Source: an uncultured delta proteobacterium
GTDB taxonomy: Bacteria > Desulfobacterota > Desulfovibrionia > Desulfovibrionales > Desulfovibrionaceae
DNA: 64,000 nt
Direction of reading: 5' to 3'
NCBI GenBank assembly: GCA_903835685.1
Contig: CAILNX010000043.1
Location: forward strand, 1-64,000
A program made the position numbers and the translations under genes. This document shows, piece by piece, positions 1,249 to 55,751 of the stretch. Below the pieces are notes generated by a model, which saw only the letters and a program-made list of their open reading frames with translations, was not told where the DNA came from and searched no databases. Each line of letters begins with the position of its first letter. Positions within the stretch are counted from its first letter, which is position 1.

Positions 1249-2379
1249 CTAGCTCTTGGCCAGAAGCTCCAGATACCGCGCGAACACCACCTCATTGTCC
1301 TCCACCTGGGCCAGGACGTCCAGCCCCAGTCCAGCGGCCCGGACCACCGCCCCGGCCAGGGCGGCCGTGTCCAGGGGATCGGCCAGGAATCCGTTCTCCC
1401 CGGGCTGGACCAGATCGCTGGCCCCCACCCGGGAGGTGGTCACCACCGGCCGCCCCATGGCCAGGGCCTCGGCCAGCACATTGCCGAAGGTGTCGTAGAA
1501 CGAGGGATGGCAGAACACGTCCAGGGCCGCGTAAAAGGCGGGCATGTCCTGCACCCGGCCCAGGAAACGGACCCGGGGGCCGATCCCAAGGGCCTCGGCC
1601 TGACGCTTATACCGGGAGGGGTCCCGCTGACCAGCCACCAGCAGCTCGAAGTTCTCGGGCATTTGGGCCAGAGCCTTGATAAGCGGGGAGAGCCCCTTGA
1701 GTTCAAAATTCGTGGAGCAGAATCCCAAGGCCGTGTGCCCGGGGCTCAGTCCCAGGGCGGCGCGGGAGGCCTCACGCAGTTCCCGGGCAATCTCGCGGTT
1801 GAAACGGGCCGTGTCCACCCCGTTGGGGATCACGGCCACCCGCTCCGGGGCCAGAGAGAAGCGGCGGCGCACCTCTTCGGCCACCAGGCCGGACACGGCG
1901 ATGATTTGGCGCGTGTCCGGATGATGATAGATGATCCGGTCCAGCACGGGCTGGAGCCAGTTGACCGGGTTCGCGGCCCGGCGCAGGGCCTTCCAGAGGC
2001 GCGCGGCCCGGGTGGGATACCCGGCCAGGGTGCCCAGGACGAAGTCCAGATGCGCCCCGCCCGAACGGAACACCGTGCACCCGGCCATTGTGGCGTAGGA
2101 CAGGCTGGCCGTGCCCGGGGCCAGGCCGCGCACCGCCCGCCCGGCCGCGAGATAGAAGCTCAAGGTCTTCAGGAACCGCCCCGGCCGCCACAGGGGGAGA
2201 AGATGGATATGCGGCCCGGTCTCTTCGGAATCGTTGCGGCCGCAGTACACCTGCACGGAAACGCCCCGGCCGCGCAGGTAGTGATAGAATTGCCAGCAGG
2301 ACCGCTCCACCCCGCCGTAGGGCGAGAAAGTGCGCACGAAAAGGGCCACGGCGGGCAGGGTCCTGGGGTTAGGGCTCAT
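1249..2379 (-). CDS. family 4 glycosyltransferase (WaaG-like)
   Basis: The 376-residue protein has the GT-B fold layout. The N-terminal acceptor domain begins RTFSPYGGVERS, the glycine-rich start seen in LPS core glycosyltransferases such as WaaG. The C-terminal nucleotide-sugar domain contains DTFGNVLAEALAMGRPVV, the family 4 EX7E-type signature. It probably adds a hexose or heptose to an LPS-type core on the cytoplasmic face of the inner membrane. Its ATG overlaps the 3' end of the family 2 glycosyltransferase gene by 11 bases, so the two are translationally coupled. Donor and acceptor are not predictable. Confidence 0.85.
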   Translation of the reverse strand: MSPNPRTLPAVALFVRTFSPYGGVERSCWQFYHYLRGRGVSVQVYCGRNDSEETGPHIHLLPLWRPGRFLKTLSFYLAAGRAVRGLAPGTASLSYATMAGCTVFRSGGAHLDFVLGTLAGYPTRAARLWKALRRAANPVNWLQPVLDRIIYHHPDTRQIIAVSGLVAEEVRRRFSLAPERVAVIPNGVDTARFNREIARELREASRAALGLSPGHTALGFCSTNFELKGLSPLIKALAQMPENFELLVAGQRDPSRYKRQAEALGIGPRVRFLGRVQDMPAFYAALDVFCHPSFYDTFGNVLAEALAMGRPVVTTSRVGASDLVQPGENGFLADPLDTAALAGAVVRAAGLGLDVLAQVEDNEVVFARYLELLAKS

Positions 2380-3247
2380 ACCGCCCCATCCGGCCGCGCA
2401 AAAAATCCCACGCGCCCCGGGCCATCATGGCCAGCTTGGCCCCCTTGTCGCTCTCGAAGCACAGGACATTGCGCACTTCCTTGAACAGCTCTTTGCGGCT
2501 GCTCCGGCAATAGTCCGGGAAGGCCTCCCGGTAGCGGCGCATCATCCACAGGCGGTTGCGGAAAATATAGTAGCGCCGCAAGGGGGAGTGGTTGGTGGTG
2601 TATTTCACCCGGCCGAACTGGCGATGGGCGGTGATCTCTCCCAGTTCGTGCTCCAGAAAGGCGTCGTTGACCCGGACCACCAGATACCCGGCCAGGCGCA
2701 GCCGCAGGCAGAACTCGTGGTCCACGCAGTCGATGAACAGGCCCTCGTCGAATGGTCCGACTTCCTTCCAGGCCGCCAGGTCCACCAGATTGCCCGAGGT
2801 CATGATGGTGGTCTCCTCCTGCCAGGGCCGCTTGACCACCGGCCGGGGATCGTCCCGAGTCACCTGCCGGGCGGAGATGACCCCAATCCTGTTCATACCC
2901 TGCCCCGTAAGCTCGGCCAAAACCTCCAGGAGCCGGGGAACCATGCCCGGCCGGGCCTTGCTGTCCTGGTCCAGGGTCAGCAAATGGGTGTACCCGTCCT
3001 CGATGGCCATGCGGGCGGCCATGTTCATGGCCCCGGCCGTGCCCAGGTTGGCCCCGGCCCGGAGGTAGACCACCTTGGGCAGGGCCTGGAGCAGATGCGG
3101 CAGGGAATCGGGAGCGTCGGAATCAGGGCCGGGCGGGGAATTGTCCACGGCGTAGAGCCGGTCCAGGCCCGGCAGGCAGGCCTGGATGTTGTCCAGGACC
3201 TCTCGGGTCGGGTGAAAGAGGACCACGCATCCGGCTGGAAGAGTCAT
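2369..3247 (-). CDS. family 2 glycosyltransferase, rhamnosyltransferase-like
   Basis: This is a 292-residue GT-A enzyme. The sequence LLTLDQDSKARPG near residue 90 is the DxD-type nucleotide-sugar site in the form typical of bacterial rhamnosyltransferases (WbbL/RfbF type). The ATG at 3247 is preferred to an in-frame extension upstream because GAGAGG lies 7 bases before it and the N-terminus (MTLPAGCVVLFHPTRE) starts the Rossmann-like fold. It is second to last in the polysaccharide operon, and a hairpin at 3275-3296 separates it from the radical SAM gene. Confidence 0.85.
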   Translation of the reverse strand: MTLPAGCVVLFHPTREVLDNIQACLPGLDRLYAVDNSPPGPDSDAPDSLPHLLQALPKVVYLRAGANLGTAGAMNMAARMAIEDGYTHLLTLDQDSKARPGMVPRLLEVLAELTGQGMNRIGVISARQVTRDDPRPVVKRPWQEETTIMTSGNLVDLAAWKEVGPFDEGLFIDCVDHEFCLRLRLAGYLVVRVNDAFLEHELGEITAHRQFGRVKYTTNHSPLRRYYIFRNRLWMMRRYREAFPDYCRSSRKELFKEVRNVLCFESDKGAKLAMMARGAWDFLRGRMGRYEP

Positions 3248-3274
3248 TGCAAACCTCTCTCCATAAAAGGGGTT

Positions 3275-3296
3275 CCAAGGGGGCGAGCCCCCTTGG
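3275..3296 (-). terminator. perfect hairpin inside the polysaccharide operon
   Basis: CCAAGGGGGC-GA-GCCCCCTTGG is a perfect 10-bp stem with a two-base loop. On the minus strand it is followed by AACCCCTTTT, a weak U tract. It lies between the radical SAM gene (upstream) and the glycosyltransferase (downstream), so it could cause partial termination or stabilise the 3' end of a processed mRNA. Confidence 0.5.
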
Positions 3297-3333
3297 CCCC
3301 CGGAGGGGTTCTTTCCACCACCATGCCCGCCCC

Positions 3334-4338
3334 TTACTTGATCTTCCCGGCCAGCTTGCGCAGCATGCCCCCCAGGGTGAGCTGGCGGCTGGTCTGCACC
3401 AGGCGGCCGAGTTTCGAGGGCCTGGACTGGGCGATGCCGGGCACGTGCGGGTTGTGCGTCCACCAGGCCACGCCCGCGCACAGGCATTCCTTGCAGATGC
3501 CCTGGGAGACCTTGCGGGTGCGGATATCCTCGGCGGACAGGTCGAAGACCGAGCCCAGGGCGTAGTCCGGGTGGTTCTTGGGGGCCACGCAGCAGGTCAG
3601 CACCTGGCAGTTTTCGTCCAGGGTCAGTTGGGAGAACTGCTGGCAGACGTAGTCCGAGGGCTGGGCGGCCAGAAGGTCGTCCAGGTAGAAGAGCAGGAGT
3701 TCCTGGGACACCCGGCGCAGCAGGGCGTAGTCCATCTTGCCGTTCAGGTAGGACAGGGCCTGGTTGTAGTCGTTCAGATAGGCCGCGTAGGGGGAGAAGA
3801 GGATGTGCTTGTCCTGGCAGAAGCGCCGGGCCAGGGCGATCTCGTCCAGGTTGAACTGGTAGATGTGATAGAGCATCTCCCGCTTGCCGGTGAAGGCCGA
3901 GACCCTGAGGGAGGCCAGGAGCCCCTCGATGTTCTCCAGGACGGTCCCGAACTGAAATCCGTGGATGCGGTCGTAGGAGGCCTGGCTGAAGCCCGGGGCG
4001 GAAATGAAGATGTGCTTCAGAAAGGGCAGGCTCTCCCGCTCAAAGGACATGGGCCGGGAGGCGTTGGTGCTGATGATGAAGCGCAAATTCCGCCGGGCCA
4101 GGATGCGCAGGATGCCGGGCAGGTCCGGGTGCAGGAAGGGCTCGCCCCAGTTGTAGAGGTGGGTCACGGTTTTCGGGCCGATGAGCCCCTGGGCCAGGAG
4201 CCGGTCGAGGGCGCCCTCGAACCGGGCCGGGTCCAGGAAGCGCTCCTGGCCCGTGCCGCCCGAACGGTTGCCGGTGATGCAATAGGGGCAGCGCGCGTTG
4301 CACACCCCGGAAATCTCGAAAACAAGGGTCTTGAACAT
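3334..4338 (-). CDS. radical SAM protein with SPASM-like C-terminus
   Basis: Residues 13-20 read CNARCPYC, the CxxxCxxC motif that binds the SAM-cleaving [4Fe-4S] cluster. The C-terminal third has further cysteines (CQQFSQL, CQVLTCC, CKECLCAG) in the arrangement of SPASM or twitch auxiliary-cluster domains. The total of 334 residues is usual. Similar proteins occur in LPS and capsule clusters, where they are thought to modify a sugar or lipid, but the substrate here is unknown. ATG at 4338 follows GGTAGGAC. The gene begins 3 bases after the stop of the glycosyltransferase at 4342-5265. Confidence 0.8.
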   Translation of the reverse strand: MFKTLVFEISGVCNARCPYCITGNRSGGTGQERFLDPARFEGALDRLLAQGLIGPKTVTHLYNWGEPFLHPDLPGILRILARRNLRFIISTNASRPMSFERESLPFLKHIFISAPGFSQASYDRIHGFQFGTVLENIEGLLASLRVSAFTGKREMLYHIYQFNLDEIALARRFCQDKHILFSPYAAYLNDYNQALSYLNGKMDYALLRRVSQELLLFYLDDLLAAQPSDYVCQQFSQLTLDENCQVLTCCVAPKNHPDYALGSVFDLSAEDIRTRKVSQGICKECLCAGVAWWTHNPHVPGIAQSRPSKLGRLVQTSRQLTLGGMLRKLAGKIK

Positions 4339-4341
4339 GTC

Positions 4342-5265
4342 CTACCCCAGGCTTTTGAGCAGCCTGATCCAGATGCGCGGTGAACACACGGCCCGTACGG
4401 CCAGCCCCCGGTCCAGGTTCCAGAGTCGGCCCCAGAACTCCCGAAGCGCCCGGCGCTCGCCGTGGCGGATGAGCTTGGTCATGGTCCCCCGGGCCAGCTT
4501 GCGCACGGCCCTGGTCCGGAAACGCCGGATATCCGCCTCGGGCAGGGCCGCCTTGGCCCGGGCCAGTTCGCAGGGGGCCAGGACCGAAAAGAGGTCGGCC
4601 CACAGGGTCTCCACGTCCAGGCTGCCGGAATAGCCCCCCCGGTGGATGCGGTGGGTGCAGGCCACCTGGGGCGCGTAGCCGATGTTGCCCAGGATGGCGG
4701 CGGTGAATCCCACCAGTTCGTCCAGGCTGATCATGCGCGCGGGCGGCGAGAGGCGCCGCACCTCGTCCATGACCTCCCGGCGCACCAGCATGCGGGTGAA
4801 CAGGGTGGCCGCGTTGTCCGCCCAGCAGCGAGTCAGAAAATCCCGGCCGAGCACGCAGGCAGGCAGGTCGTGCACCATATCCCGGAAGTCCCCGTTCTCC
4901 TCCAGAAAGCGCACCCCGCTGATGACCAGCATCGCGTCCGGGCAGGCCTTGGCCCCGGCCAGGAGCACGGAGATGGCCGAAGGCTCCAGGATGTCGTCGT
5001 CGTCCAGGTATTTGAGCCAGGGCGCGGCGGTCATCTCGGCCAGGCGCAGGTAGTTCCCGGCCAGGCCCAGGGCCGGGGTGTTGCGCTGGTAGGTGATCCG
5101 TCCCGCCTCAACGAGGTCGCGCACCACCTGGTACACGGCCCCGTCGGGGCAGTCGTCGGAGAGGATGACCTCCACCGCCGGATAATCCTGGGCCAGGGCC
5201 GTTTCCACGGCCTGCCGGATGTGCCCGGCCTTGTAGGCCGGGATGAGGACAGCGACCTGCTCCAA
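4342..5265 (-). CDS. family 2 glycosyltransferase
   Basis: The 307-residue protein begins EQVAVLIPAYKAG, the usual start of a GT-A fold, and has LKYLDDDDILEPS near residue 90, the DxD metal and nucleotide-sugar site. It belongs to the minus-strand polysaccharide operon, 36 bases downstream of the UDP-glucuronate decarboxylase. The start is uncertain: the only in-frame candidate that keeps the conserved N-terminus is a TTG at 5265 with no clear ribosome-binding site, so translation may depend on ribosomes arriving from the upstream gene. The sugar transferred is not predictable, though the neighbour suggests UDP-xylose as one possible donor. Confidence 0.8.
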   Translation of the reverse strand: MEQVAVLIPAYKAGHIRQAVETALAQDYPAVEVILSDDCPDGAVYQVVRDLVEAGRITYQRNTPALGLAGNYLRLAEMTAAPWLKYLDDDDILEPSAISVLLAGAKACPDAMLVISGVRFLEENGDFRDMVHDLPACVLGRDFLTRCWADNAATLFTRMLVRREVMDEVRRLSPPARMISLDELVGFTAAILGNIGYAPQVACTHRIHRGGYSGSLDVETLWADLFSVLAPCELARAKAALPEADIRRFRTRAVRKLARGTMTKLIRHGERRALREFWGRLWNLDRGLAVRAVCSPRIWIRLLKSLG

Positions 5266-52359: not shown

Positions 52360-53634
52360 CTACCCCACGTAGGTATGCTTCAGCTTCATGACATCACGGT
52401 AGGGTACGACCCCTTGGATGATGTCGTTTTCGTTGAGCACCGGGATGGCGCGGAAGCCATAGCGTTCAAACATAGTGGCGGCGTCCTTGAGGGTATCGCC
52501 CAGGGTGAGGGTCTTGACGCTGGTGGTCATGATGGCGTCCAGACGTAAGGCAGGGTCTGAGCGCAGGATGGTATGGTAGTTGACCACGCCAAGCAAACGG
52601 TTGTCGCCAGAAAGGACGTAGATGTACCAGATGACATCCTTGTCCCGGGCGACCTCCCGGAACTGCTGAAATACCTCGTCCACCTTGGTTTCGGGCGGAA
52701 AAGTGATGATGCTGTCCGTGGCGAAGTCGGAGATGTCTTTGTCATGGTCGTCCATGAGCGACTCGATCTTCTCGACATGCTCCTTTTCGTCCATGAGGGC
52801 CAGGATGTCGTCGGCGTCGGCAGCAGGCAGGGCGGAAAGAACGTCGGCGGCCTGGGCGGGGGTCATTTCCTCGATGAGCTCGGCGGCCTTCTCATCGCCG
52901 ATGCTGTGAATGATCTCCCGCTGCACGCGGGGTTCGATCTCCTCCAGGGTGTCCGAGGCCTGCTCCACGTCCAATTCGTTGAAGATGGTCAAGCGATGGT
53001 CATGCTCCATCTCCTCCAGAATGTCGGCCAAGTCCACGGGGTGGATCTCATGGACCTTCTCCTTGAGAATGTTGAGCTTCAGGCTGCCAGTGAAGCGGCC
53101 AAGCTCATGCGAGAGCGGCTGCACGTACTTCCAGGAGATGGGTTCGTCCTGGAGCGTGGCGGCCAACTTGCTGATATAGTCAGCGAGACGCCTCAAACCG
53201 ATACGGCGCAGGAAGCTGTGACGGGAGCAATCCACGTCGCTGACATAGAGCTTGCCACTGCGCAGGCATAGGCGCACGTCATAGACCACTTCGACCTCGT
53301 GATCTTCCAGGTCCACGATCTTTTTGTCCAAAATATGATCCCGCAAAAGCACCAACCCGTCGAAATGGTCCTTCTCGCGGCTTTCAAGGCTCTCCATGCG
53401 AACGGTCACCTCCCGTTCGCCGAACTTGACATCGACCCACGGAATCAAGAGCGACTTGTAGCCAAAGGAACGGCTGACGATGATGTCGGTGACCTCGGGC
53501 ACTACCCCGGTCTCCCGGATGGCGATGTCATCGAGCTTGCCGACCTTCTTGCCGTTCCAGACCACCTTTCGGCCGAGGAGTTCGGAAAGGTTGAAGAATT
53601 GCTCGACGCACGCGGAAGTGATTTCTTGGGTCAT
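52360..53634 (-). CDS. soluble PRC-barrel, MgtE-N and CBS-pair protein
   Basis: The 424-residue protein has two PRC-barrel-like segments (~15-75, GRKVVWNGKKVGKLDDIAI; ~95-150), an MgtE N-terminal superhelical domain (~180-295, LKEKVHEIHPVDLADILEEM) and a CBS pair (~300-424). These are the cytosolic Mg2+-sensing modules of the channel MgtE, but the membrane pore is missing. It is last in the operon with an Nramp-related transporter, so it probably senses Mg2+ and gates that transporter or another partner. GGGGGATACC precedes the ATG. Confidence 0.85.
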   Translation of the reverse strand: MTQEITSACVEQFFNLSELLGRKVVWNGKKVGKLDDIAIRETGVVPEVTDIIVSRSFGYKSLLIPWVDVKFGEREVTVRMESLESREKDHFDGLVLLRDHILDKKIVDLEDHEVEVVYDVRLCLRSGKLYVSDVDCSRHSFLRRIGLRRLADYISKLAATLQDEPISWKYVQPLSHELGRFTGSLKLNILKEKVHEIHPVDLADILEEMEHDHRLTIFNELDVEQASDTLEEIEPRVQREIIHSIGDEKAAELIEEMTPAQAADVLSALPAADADDILALMDEKEHVEKIESLMDDHDKDISDFATDSIITFPPETKVDEVFQQFREVARDKDVIWYIYVLSGDNRLLGVVNYHTILRSDPALRLDAIMTTSVKTLTLGDTLKDAATMFERYGFRAIPVLNENDIIQGVVPYRDVMKLKHTYVG

Positions 53635-53654
53635 GGTATCCCCCTTGGCGTCGG

Positions 53655-53834
53655 CTATGCCGTCAGCACGGTGATGAATTTGTAGAGAAGCAGCCCTACC
53701 AATAACACCAGGTAGCAGCGCAGCAACAGCAGACAGAACTTGACCGGACCGGACATGACCAGTCGCGGGTGGGCGTATTTTTCGTTGATCTCGTGGATCT
53801 TCCGGAAATGCTTTTGGATGAAGTTCTTGAGCAT
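53655..53834 (-). CDS. 59-residue single-pass membrane protein
   Basis: This short gene codes MLKNFIQKHFRKIHEINEKYAH... and ends LLLYKFITVLTA. It has a basic amphipathic N-terminus and one hydrophobic segment (~33-57, FCLLLLRCYLVLLVGLLLY). GGGAGAAGG lies 4 bases before ATG 53834. It sits 15 bases after the transporter stop and 20 bases before the MgtE-N gene start, so it is the middle gene of the operon. It may be a small regulatory subunit of the transporter. No family is recognised. Confidence 0.75.
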   Translation of the reverse strand: MLKNFIQKHFRKIHEINEKYAHPRLVMSGPVKFCLLLLRCYLVLLVGLLLYKFITVLTA

Positions 53835-53849
53835 GATCCTTCTCCCTGG

Positions 53850-55121
53850 CTATTTGAACAGGTCTGGGAATAACGTGCTGGCCGCATAGAGCGTGGAAAG
53901 CACGACAATAACCGAGACGATGGTGATGTTGATGATGTTTTCAAAGAGCGTGTTCTTGTACTCGCCCATGGTCTTCTCATCGTTGAGGAGCAAGAGGAGA
54001 AAGACCAGAGCCGCAGGCAGAAGGGTCACAGCCACCACCTGCACAAAGAGTGTGATGAGTACGAGCGGCGCGCCGGGGATGAGCACCACGGCTCCCGCAC
54101 TGACGAGGGCGAAGAAGTAGGCGGCGTAGAACCAGGGCGCTTCCTTGATCTTGTTGTTGAGCGAATGGGCCCAGCCGAAGATTTCACCAAGTGCCCAGGA
54201 ACTGGCCAGGGATATGCAGATGGCCCCAAGAAGCCCGGCATCAAAGAGCCCGATGGCCATGAACGTGCCCGCGTAGCCGTGGTTGGACTCCATGAGCATC
54301 TTCGAGGCCTGGGCCGCGTCGTCGATGTCCACCCCGGGCAGCACCGTGCCCACCACGATGATGATGAAGGTGGCCACCACAACGGTCAGGATGGAGCCAA
54401 GCAAGGTGTCAAACTTGCCGAAAGGGATGTCCTTTTCGGTCATGCCCTTGTCCACCACGGCGCTCTGCTGGAAGAAGATCATCCAGGGGGCGATGGTGGT
54501 GCCGATGTTGGCCATGAGGAAGAAGAAGAGTTGGTTGTCGAAGTGGCCGCCTGGCAGATTGGGGATAAATCCCTTCATCACCTCAGCAGTCGAGGGGTTT
54601 ACCCAGAACGCGGCCGGGATGTAAATAAGGTTGAGCAGGCAGAAAGCCATGGTGATCTTTTCCCAGGTCCAGTAACGACCATTAAGCACCATGAAGCCCA
54701 TGACACAGATGACGCCGAGGATGGTCAGCCAGGGTGGTACCCCGAAGATGCCCATGGCCGCAGTCATACCGATAAACTCGGTGATGAGCGTCAGCCAGTC
54801 GCAGAAGACCAGGTCCACCAGCGAGAACCAGCCCCAGAAGGCCCCGAAGTTCTCGAAGATGGCCTCGGCGTGTCCGCGTTTCGTCACAGCCCCCAGGCGT
54901 ACGGTCATCTCCTGGACGTAGTAGGCCACAGGCACCAGGATGATGAGAAACCAAATGAAATTGTAGCCGTATTTTGCTCCGGTGGCGGCATAGGTGGTGA
55001 TGCCACCCGCGTCGTTGTCCGCGATCATGACCACCAGACCGGGGCCTGAAAGGATGAGGAAAAGCCGGATGGCCTTCCACCAGCGCCTGAAAAGATAGAA
55101 AAGATAGGTGAAGAAGCTCAT
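53850..55121 (-). CDS. Nramp-related (NRMT-type) divalent cation transporter, probably Mg2+
   Basis: The 423-residue protein has the 11-helix Nramp layout beginning ILSGPGLVVMIADNDAGG. The canonical helix 1 motif DPGN reads DAGG, and the helix 6 motif MPHN reads APWM (TTIAPWMIFFQQS). Thus the metal-coordinating Asn and the Met that selects transition metals are replaced by Gly and Ala, the pattern I recall for Nramp-related magnesium transporters. The downstream MgtE-N/CBS gene supports Mg2+. ATG 55121 follows GGAGGGAAAC. Base composition is visibly less GC-rich than that of neighbouring genes, which suggests acquisition by transfer. Confidence 0.85.
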   Translation of the reverse strand: MSFFTYLFYLFRRWWKAIRLFLILSGPGLVVMIADNDAGGITTYAATGAKYGYNFIWFLIILVPVAYYVQEMTVRLGAVTKRGHAEAIFENFGAFWGWFSLVDLVFCDWLTLITEFIGMTAAMGIFGVPPWLTILGVICVMGFMVLNGRYWTWEKITMAFCLLNLIYIPAAFWVNPSTAEVMKGFIPNLPGGHFDNQLFFFLMANIGTTIAPWMIFFQQSAVVDKGMTEKDIPFGKFDTLLGSILTVVVATFIIIVVGTVLPGVDIDDAAQASKMLMESNHGYAGTFMAIGLFDAGLLGAICISLASSWALGEIFGWAHSLNNKIKEAPWFYAAYFFALVSAGAVVLIPGAPLVLITLFVQVVAVTLLPAALVFLLLLLNDEKTMGEYKNTLFENIINITIVSVIVVLSTLYAASTLFPDLFK

Positions 55122-55751
55122 GTTTCCCTCCATAAGTGGGCATGCCTAGCATTATTCCAGGCAGAAAGCCCATTCGTCGTGTGACGTTTTGGTGTACACC
55201 GTTACAGAAGTCCCGGCCAAAACGCTTACACAGGGGGAGGTTCGAGGGGAGCCGAACGGCTGACGGTCCACAACCAGGGTCTGGGCGAACCCAAAGGGGC
55301 GGCATCAAATACCGGGCAATACGCCGAGAGGGACTGGATATCCCAAAACCGGGTGATGGTGTGGTTCATCGGCCACCTCCTGCATGCGCTGCCCACTCTC
55401 GAGGCGGCGCGTGGAGGCGGCCCGGCCCGGCTCACCGGGGGGACGCCACGAACAATCGCGGCCTAGAAGGCGGGTGACTCGCTTCGAAAAATTTTGTTGG
55501 CAAGGCGTCGGCTTTCGCGCCAACTGCCGCAAGGATCGTCCATGGCTCCCCTCAAGGATGTTTTCTCGACTCCGGGCCAATAGACCCCGAGCCAGCGGCT
55601 TGTCAAGCGGGAAAATGGCCCCGGGGACGTCCTCCATTCTGGCCTTTGGCAACGTTCCGGTACCAAAACGTCACCCGGCCGTCTTGCTCCGGCCCTGGCC
55701 CTGGGCTTCATCTGACAGGGCTTGGGGAACTCGTGCGCTTACGACAAGCCG
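55122..55751 (-). promoter_or_regulatory. long structured leader region of the transporter operon
   Basis: These 630 bases hold no gene except a small possible leader peptide (55226-55369). GTGACGTTTTGGT at 55181-55193 and its exact inverse ACCAAAACGTCAC at 55662-55674 frame the region, with a third CCAAAACG at 55218. A stem of GGCaGTTGGC-gcgaaa-GCCGACGCC lies on the minus strand near 55515. The length, structure and position suggest an RNA- or peptide-based control of the transporter, though a small mobile remnant is also possible. Confidence 0.45.
55226..55369 (-). CDS. possible 47-residue leader peptide of the transporter operon
   Basis: ATG 55369 has a consensus AGGAGG 6 bases upstream, the strongest ribosome-binding site in this region. 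The peptide starts MNHTITRFWDIQS, contains four Trp and ends RSAPLEPPPV. It lies 104 bases before the transporter start. Acidic/proline stretches destabilise ribosomes at low Mg2+ and are used by the MgtL-type leader peptides of enterobacteria, so this could be a Mg2+-sensing leader. The protein has no recognised family and expression is not shown. Confidence 0.4.
   Translation of the reverse strand: MNHTITRFWDIQSLSAYCPVFDAAPLGSPRPWLWTVSRSAPLEPPPV

Follow-up and report, generated by a model that had tools for sequence, protein, structure and literature searches.

A conserved membrane micro-protein beside an NRMT-type metal transporter and a detached MgtE-type sensor

Which task is shared by three adjacent genes that encode an Nramp-related transporter of the NRMT type, a protein of merely 59 amino acids (aa), and a soluble relative of the cytosolic part of the Mg2+ channel MgtE? 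This question is raised by a locus in a 64,000-nucleotide stretch of DNA (contig CAILNX010000043.1 of assembly GCA_903835685.1; hereafter the window) from an uncultured delta proteobacterium of the family Desulfovibrionaceae. We lean toward the view that the cassette forms a three-part import system for a divalent metal, most likely Mg2+, consisting of a permease, a micro-subunit and a sensor. Both the pairing of NRMT genes with MgtE-N-like genes and the idea of feedback control have already been published (Shin et al., 2014; PMC4072509). The sensor-transporter pairing is therefore known; what the window adds is a representative of a separate branch that has a third, conserved component, the 59-aa open reading frame (ORF), which the original prediction made from the DNA sequence had overlooked.

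The micro-protein and its permease branch

Searching 84,980 species genomes with an alignment built from four relatives yielded 80 loci at 53-91% identity, and further loci were taken from 297 sampled genomes that belong to the window's phylum. Three operon types can be distinguished. In type A, which includes the window, the NRMT gene is followed by the micro-protein gene and then by the sensor gene; in type B the order is NRMT, sensor and micro-protein; type C comprises the canonical NRMTs (about 35% identical), in which the sensor gene comes first. An M-box is found 5' of four of these canonical loci, and an Rfam scan for this element (RF00380) detected none in the window or in 13 clade loci. 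A hidden Markov model (HMM) built from 26 seeds recovers the micro-protein in every type A and type B locus with enough flanking sequence to show it, and in no type C locus (L098-L121). Two loci with type B sensors (L149 and L152) were considered as lacking it and then rejected as exceptions, since the micro-protein gene sits further downstream. Among the 297 genomes, strong matches (E<1e-11) occur in exactly the six that hold this NRMT branch and in none of the about 60 with a canonical NRMT; 20 further genomes each possess the micro-protein at nrmT, one of them with a second copy. Weak profile matches elsewhere (E 1e-3 to 1) were discarded, as the six examined all lie in unrelated proteins resembling the sulfite/nitrite-reductase type. 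On the permease tree, one trait change suffices to account for the linkage. The ratio of nonsynonymous to synonymous substitution rates (dN/dS) amounts to 0-0.37 in related pairs with usable dS, and the micro-protein is under purifying selection.

The start codons and ribosome-binding sequences of the micro-protein genes are clear in general. Most type A products are 54-84 aa in length and carry a conserved, positively charged cytosolic extension, whereas most type B products have 36-40 aa, with three long-tailed planctomycete or verrucomicrobial exceptions. Their common core reads P-[RK]-[IV]-x-M-[ST] and continues into a hydrophobic helix that contains the motif LRxYL (79 of 83 sequences) and, near its end, [YF][KR]F. 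Since the net charge before the helix exceeds that behind it in 66 of 83 sequences (it is equal in nine), the N-terminus is predicted to face the cytoplasm. In the planctomycete and verrucomicrobial loci L084, L090 and L091, the micro-proteins end in Pro/Ala-rich tails of 20-50 residues, which would fit an extracytoplasmic segment and an outside C-terminus.

No credible match to Pfam or NCBIfam emerged when 51 members were scanned. The micro-protein is unannotated in two enterobacterial plasmid records that we inspected and labeled as hypothetical in two others, and we found no report of such a small protein among the papers searched, a set that takes in few subscription articles or supplements and not Fig. 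S5 of Shin et al. (2014). The micro-protein is a previously undescribed component and, unlike the sensor-transporter pairing, a new part of the cassette. KdpF and MgtS are known as small single-helix regulators of transporters. The micro-protein resembles them as a short single-pass protein encoded together with a transporter to which it is presumably bound, but it shares no sequence family that we found and is linked, and elsewhere fused, to an SLC11-type permease.

The micro-protein also occurs in operons that have no sensor. The second copy mentioned above belongs to an Acidobacteriaceae genome (G336, L140), where it lies downstream of an Nramp gene with an altered metal site (GENDGPS, ATVTPW). 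Two of three loci with an altered-site Nramp of this kind have a DtxR-type regulator (iron-dependent repressor domains plus FeoA) upstream, and none of the three has an MgtE_N sensor nearby. Another branch (L168 and plasmids of Acidithiobacillus caldus and Acidiphilium) likewise combines an NRMT and a micro-protein without a sensor; two of its three loci have a CsoR-family repressor upstream. The micro-protein is hence the constant part while the controller varies. G336 as a whole holds three Nramp-related loci (L056, L140 and one on contig C167): one is canonical and has an MgtE_N match immediately upstream, another is a type A cassette, and the third is the DtxR-linked one with a micro-protein and no sensor.

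Most tellingly, nature has also joined the two membrane proteins. In plasmid-borne transporters of about 540 aa, an additional hydrophobic segment leads into a micro-protein-like C-terminus; these transporters occur in Rhodococcus, Mycolicibacterium, Streptomyces, Cellulomonas, Arthrobacter, Alicyclobacillus, the Burkholderia group, Mesorhizobium and Methylobacterium. When an HMM of nine fused C-termini is run against 18,656 ORFs, the 77 top ranks all go to micro-protein ORFs and 87 of the 89 are recovered, and an hhalign comparison of the fused C-termini with the micro-protein profile gives 93.9% (E 1.5e-7). A CBS sensor accompanies the fusions of Rhodococcus, Mycolicibacterium, Cellulomonas and Arthrobacter, and a metal-sensing repressor those of Mesorhizobium and Methylobacterium. 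The extra segment would be what returns the N-terminus of the micro-protein moiety to the cytosolic side. In adding C-terminal helices after transmembrane segment (TM) 11, the fused versions are similar to the 12-TM Nramps DMT1 and EcoDMT; they differ in that these helices are one extra helix plus the micro-protein helix, and the separate micro-protein is predicted to have the opposite orientation to TM12. Since clade-wide linkage, purifying selection, retention without a sensor and natural fusion to the permease all agree, we consider it quite probable that the micro-protein is a dedicated small subunit of the permease.

Metal site, sensor and proposed mechanism

The original prediction had read the replacement of the metal-site Asn and Met by Gly and Ala as the mark of an NRMT, and the third gene as a PRC/MgtE_N/CBS protein without a pore; both assignments hold. 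The nrmT product matches PF01566 (E 2e-75), its best solved relative is EleNRMT (7qia, E 8e-66), and a structure model superimposes on the latter with a Z-score of 43.7 and a root mean square deviation of 2.5 over 381 aligned residues. NRMTs are defined by the signature DxxG-TxxA (Ramanadane, 2022; PMC8806188), to which D41-G44 and T212-A215 of the window permease correspond exactly (DNDAGG with Gly44 for Asn; GTTIAPWM with Ala215 for Met); residue numbers refer to the product P0001 read from position 55133 and decrease by 4 if translation starts at 55121. In the clade, DNDAGG is present in 84 of 87 members, TTIAPWM in 80 and TTITPWQ in six. The TM6b histidine positions are occupied by Trp217 and Gln222 (Trp and Asn in EleNRMT; PMC8806188), and Glu119 of TM3 is retained. 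The permease tree places the window on the NRMT side (support 100/100), on a branch separate from EleNRMT and the canonical proteins, and leaves the order of the basal splits unfixed. The window shares with the NrmT/NRMT systems described previously (Shin et al., 2014; Ramanadane, 2022) the permease family, the metal-site signature, the adjoining MgtE-N-like sensor and the feedback proposal; it differs from canonical nrmT operons by its separate branch, the leading position of the NRMT gene, the lack of a detectable M-box and the conserved micro-protein, which the canonical operons do not have.

The permeases linked to a micro-protein have a block of residues in common at the cytosolic end of TM3 (W100, G101, F103, S104 and D107). 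Asp107 is found in 33 of 33 linked permeases and in none of 14 others (canonical NRMTs, EleNRMT and classical Nramps). When 84 permease/micro-protein pairs are compared, Asp107 is accompanied by Arg at micro-protein position 39 in 80, by Lys in one and by Gln in two, and the single Asn107 is accompanied by Lys. A salt bridge between Asp107 and Arg39 would be our guess.

The sensor consists of a PRC barrel, an MgtE_N domain (E 1e-22) and two CBS domains, and its best solved match is the cytosolic domain of TtMgtE (2yvy, E 8e-22); a Foldseek search likewise matches it to MgtE cytosolic domains. No match to the MgtE pore domain (PF01769) exists in the sensor or elsewhere in the window genome. Of 34 sensors, canonical ones among them, 32 have a PRC barrel. 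Mapping of the TtMgtE Mg2+ sites (PMC5882242; PMC5529423) reveals that the ligands E59 (Mg7, here Asp; D/E), D95 (Mg6) and D247 (one of Mg4) are retained, and that D91 (Mg4), D226 and D250 (both Mg5) are lost. This loss fits a sensor freed from a channel, because Mg4 and Mg5 bridge to the plug helix, which the sensor does not have. At the nucleotide site, Tyr170 and Phe227 are kept and Arg187 and Asp188 are replaced by His and Thr; most relatives have a basic and an acidic residue at these two positions. With TtMgtE (2zy9/2yvy) the sensor hence shares the MgtE_N plus CBS module, the Mg6/Mg7 ligands and part of the ATP site (the Y170 and F227 positions), whereas it lacks plug helix and pore, has an N-terminal PRC barrel, has lost D91 of Mg4 and the Mg5 ligands, and is encoded as a separate protein beside an Nramp-fold permease.

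A survey of NRMT genes for MgtE-N/CBS neighbors, suggested by the original prediction, uncovered a conserved linkage: nearly all loci of the window clade and 21 of the 24 canonical loci place the sensor gene next to that of the transporter, contrary to the absence of linkage named as a refutation. No natural sensor-permease fusion was present in the loci inspected; a long open frame in L122 (G241) was rejected as a candidate, because the sensor is separate and on the other strand. A close relative of the window (L141, genome G005) carries two MgtE_N/CBS sensors in tandem (1975-3255 and 3349-4614, minus strand), of which the second is more diverged (about 50% identical); they could possibly form hetero-dimers.

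These data can be assembled into a working model. The NRMT would serve as the permease and import mainly Mg2+. The 59-aa protein would pack onto it near TM3, with Arg39 facing Asp107, its N-terminus in the cytoplasm and its C-terminus outside. The MgtE_N and CBS domains of the cytosolic sensor would close upon binding Mg2+, and perhaps a nucleotide, and the closed sensor would throttle the permease, either directly or via the cytosolic face of the TM2-TM3 loop and the micro-subunit. In sister operons, transcriptional metal control of the DtxR or CsoR type would take the place of the sensor, with the micro-subunit retained. That the sensor exerts feedback on the permease we regard as somewhat likely; this throttling step derives from homology and linkage, and gating of the transporter by the sensor, as already proposed by Shin et al. 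(2014), is plausible. With slightly less than an even chance, the micro-protein might even be an obligate beta-subunit of a large, mobile SLC11-type branch, whose Arg-Asp hold at TM3 and the TM2-TM3 loop would offer a docking point for interchangeable controllers, here the MgtE-type Mg2+ sensor. Were this so, no dedicated subunit of an Nramp-fold metal transporter would, to our knowledge, have been described before.

Several points weigh against this picture. With the A. capsulatum transporter, rescue was seen for Mn uptake instead of Mg uptake, and co-expression of its sensor gave no gain in Mg rescue; NrmT of C. acetobutylicum carries Mg2+ without a sensor, so that the tested relatives present a mixed record (PMC4072509). 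EleNRMT transports both Mg2+ and Mn2+ (PMC8806188), and the window genome also encodes CorA. The Asp107-Arg39 contact is drawn from conservation, not from covariation or structure, and is weakened further because shared clade ancestry explains much of the pattern. Finally, we modeled two pseudo-fusions with AlphaFold, translated through the intergenic stops of two loci whose genes by chance share a reading frame (L013, type A; L100, type C). The folds come out as expected (mean predicted local distance difference test scores of 86.8 and 81.5, respectively), but with predicted template modeling scores of 0.57 and 0.51 neither sensor nor micro-protein is docked confidently. An apparent position of the micro-helix at the TM12 site of 12-TM Nramps was rejected, as the short artificial linker forces its orientation.

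Rival readings of substrate and control

The first alternative concerns the substrate, which might be Mn2+ or another transition metal to which the sensor would respond as well. The rescue of Mn uptake by A. capsulatum NrmT, which has an MgtE-like neighbor, and the Mn2+ transport by EleNRMT speak for it, as do the DtxR- or CsoR-type metal regulators of the sister operons and plasmid copies beside heavy-metal ATPase, ArsR and cation diffusion genes. We nevertheless consider it unlikely. The metal site is exactly DxxG-TxxA, the MgtE-derived sensor keeps its Mg6 and Mg7 ligands, and the carriers with other regulators have altered sites or sit in other subclades. Among 22 carriers, moreover, the MgtE pore domain is found in two (absent from 20) and CorA in eight, with 13 having neither, in drafts that are incomplete and by a scan that did not extend to P-type Mg2+ pumps; we infer that carriers may rely on the NRMT cassette for their Mg2+. 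Mg2+ is therefore, in our judgment, rather likely the main substrate of the window permease.

A second and equally doubtful alternative grants the cassette its Mg2+ and holds that the sensor does not act on the permease, but serves as a Mg2+/nucleotide buffer, as a chaperone or on some other partner, the operon then grouping co-expressed functions of Mg2+ homeostasis. It can draw on the absent co-expression effect in the single published test, the failure of two models to dock the sensor confidently, and the Bacteroidetes locus L068, in which a type B-like sensor stands beside a type A permease. The very wide linkage of the sensor to one permease family, their co-inheritance through horizontal transfer and the loss of exactly those Mg sites that face the plug helix, which would be expected once a sensor is released from the MgtE pore, argue for sensor feedback instead. 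Least convincing is a role of the micro-protein as a membrane anchor or adaptor that docks the PRC barrel of the sensor, in the way a helix precedes the PRC barrel in the reaction-centre H subunit: although the type A micro-protein gene directly precedes that of the PRC-containing sensor, the type A extension is positively charged and conserved, and the sensor has no membrane segment of its own, canonical sensors possess a PRC barrel yet no micro-protein, the micro-protein is kept where no sensor is nearby, its fusion partner is the permease and was never seen to be the sensor, and type B versions are just 36-40 aa long.

Spread, layout and meaning of the cassette

At least a dozen bacterial phyla host type A and B cassettes, as do Methanomicrobiales, Methanosarcina, Methanothrix and Thermoplasmata, and bacteria and archaea are mixed on the permease tree; many records are metagenome bins, so that an individual archaeal assignment could reflect mis-binning, but several of them sit on contigs of more than 100 kb. 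In the window's own family, a relative at >=42% identity was found in only two of 22 other genera sampled, and the loci L013 and L005 share the three genes with the window, whereas their flanks differ. On conjugative IncHI plasmids of Citrobacter and Serratia, the cassette has a 77% identical permease and an unannotated micro-protein. Patchy occurrence, differing flanks in close relatives, the mixture of bacteria and archaea on the tree and the conjugative plasmid copies indicate that the cassette spreads horizontally. Within type A, permease and sensor distances correlate (r 0.69; none of 2000 permutations as high), which means that the genes travel together, L068 excepted; in this locus (sensor at 2579-3811, beside a type A permease and micro-protein) the sensor gene was apparently exchanged.

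The original prediction had deduced horizontal gain from the lower G+C content of the operon, an argument that does not stand as made: the overall value is 0.57 versus 0.67, yet at third codon positions it is 0.80-0.81 versus a window median of 0.86, and the dip falls mainly on codon positions 1-2, reflecting protein composition.

On the IncHI plasmids NZ_LR881935.1 and CP068396.1 (L174, L175), the cassette lies beside genes for a heavy-metal P-type ATPase, an ArsR-family regulator and transposases, and on two plasmids an MgtC/SapB-family gene is located near the transporter (L177, 5584-6300; L179, 4644-5354). According to record titles, the carriers of L013-L092 stem largely from stratified lakes, peat, groundwater, sediments and apparently mine-impacted sites.

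In the window, the three genes are arranged head to tail (Table 1), with gaps of 15 nucleotides between the nrmT stop and the 59-aa ORF and of 20 nucleotides between the latter and the sensor gene. Shine-Dalgarno-like sequences precede the start of the 59-aa ORF (GGGAGAAGG) and that of the sensor gene (AAGGGGGAT). The true nrmT start is likely position 55121 rather than 55133, because GGAGGG is present just upstream of the former.

Table 1. Positions of the cassette genes and of the domains and codons discussed, in window coordinates.
Feature	Position	Strand	Basis
nrmT, NRMT-type divalent metal transporter, 427 aa (from 55133) or 423 aa (from 55121)	53850..55133	-	PF01566, EleNRMT 7qia, structure alignment
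TM1 metal-site codons D41-A-G-G44 (DxxG)	55002..55013	-	EleNRMT alignment; DNDAGG in clade
TM6 metal-site codons T212-T-I-A215 (TxxA)	54489..54500	-	EleNRMT alignment; TTIAPWM in clade
Asp107 codon, cytosolic start of TM3	54813..54815	-	Conserved across micro-protein-linked transporters
59-aa single-helix membrane micro-protein, predicted N-terminus inside, new family	53655..53834	-	Sequence profile, conservation
Arg39 codon, LRxYL motif of the micro-protein	53718..53720	-	LRxYL in 79/83; all nine fused versions keep R and Y
Detached MgtE-type cytosolic sensor, 424 aa, without membrane part	52360..53634	-	PRC, MgtE_N, two CBS; TtMgtE 2yvy; Foldseek
PRC-barrel domain of the sensor, aa 12-79	53398..53601	-	PF05239, E 1e-5
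MgtE_N domain of the sensor	52756..53046	-	PF03448
CBS pair of the sensor	52381..52737	-	PF00571, two stretches

Transporters of the Nramp/SLC11 family are regarded as self-sufficient monomers. A conserved micro-subunit that accompanies a single permease branch in bacteria, in archaea and on conjugative plasmids would alter this picture. The missing third part may explain why co-expression of permease and sensor had no effect, and the role of the MgtE-like fragment, a question posed in 2014, becomes directly testable. For structural work, the natural fusion of permease and micro-protein provides a ready construct.

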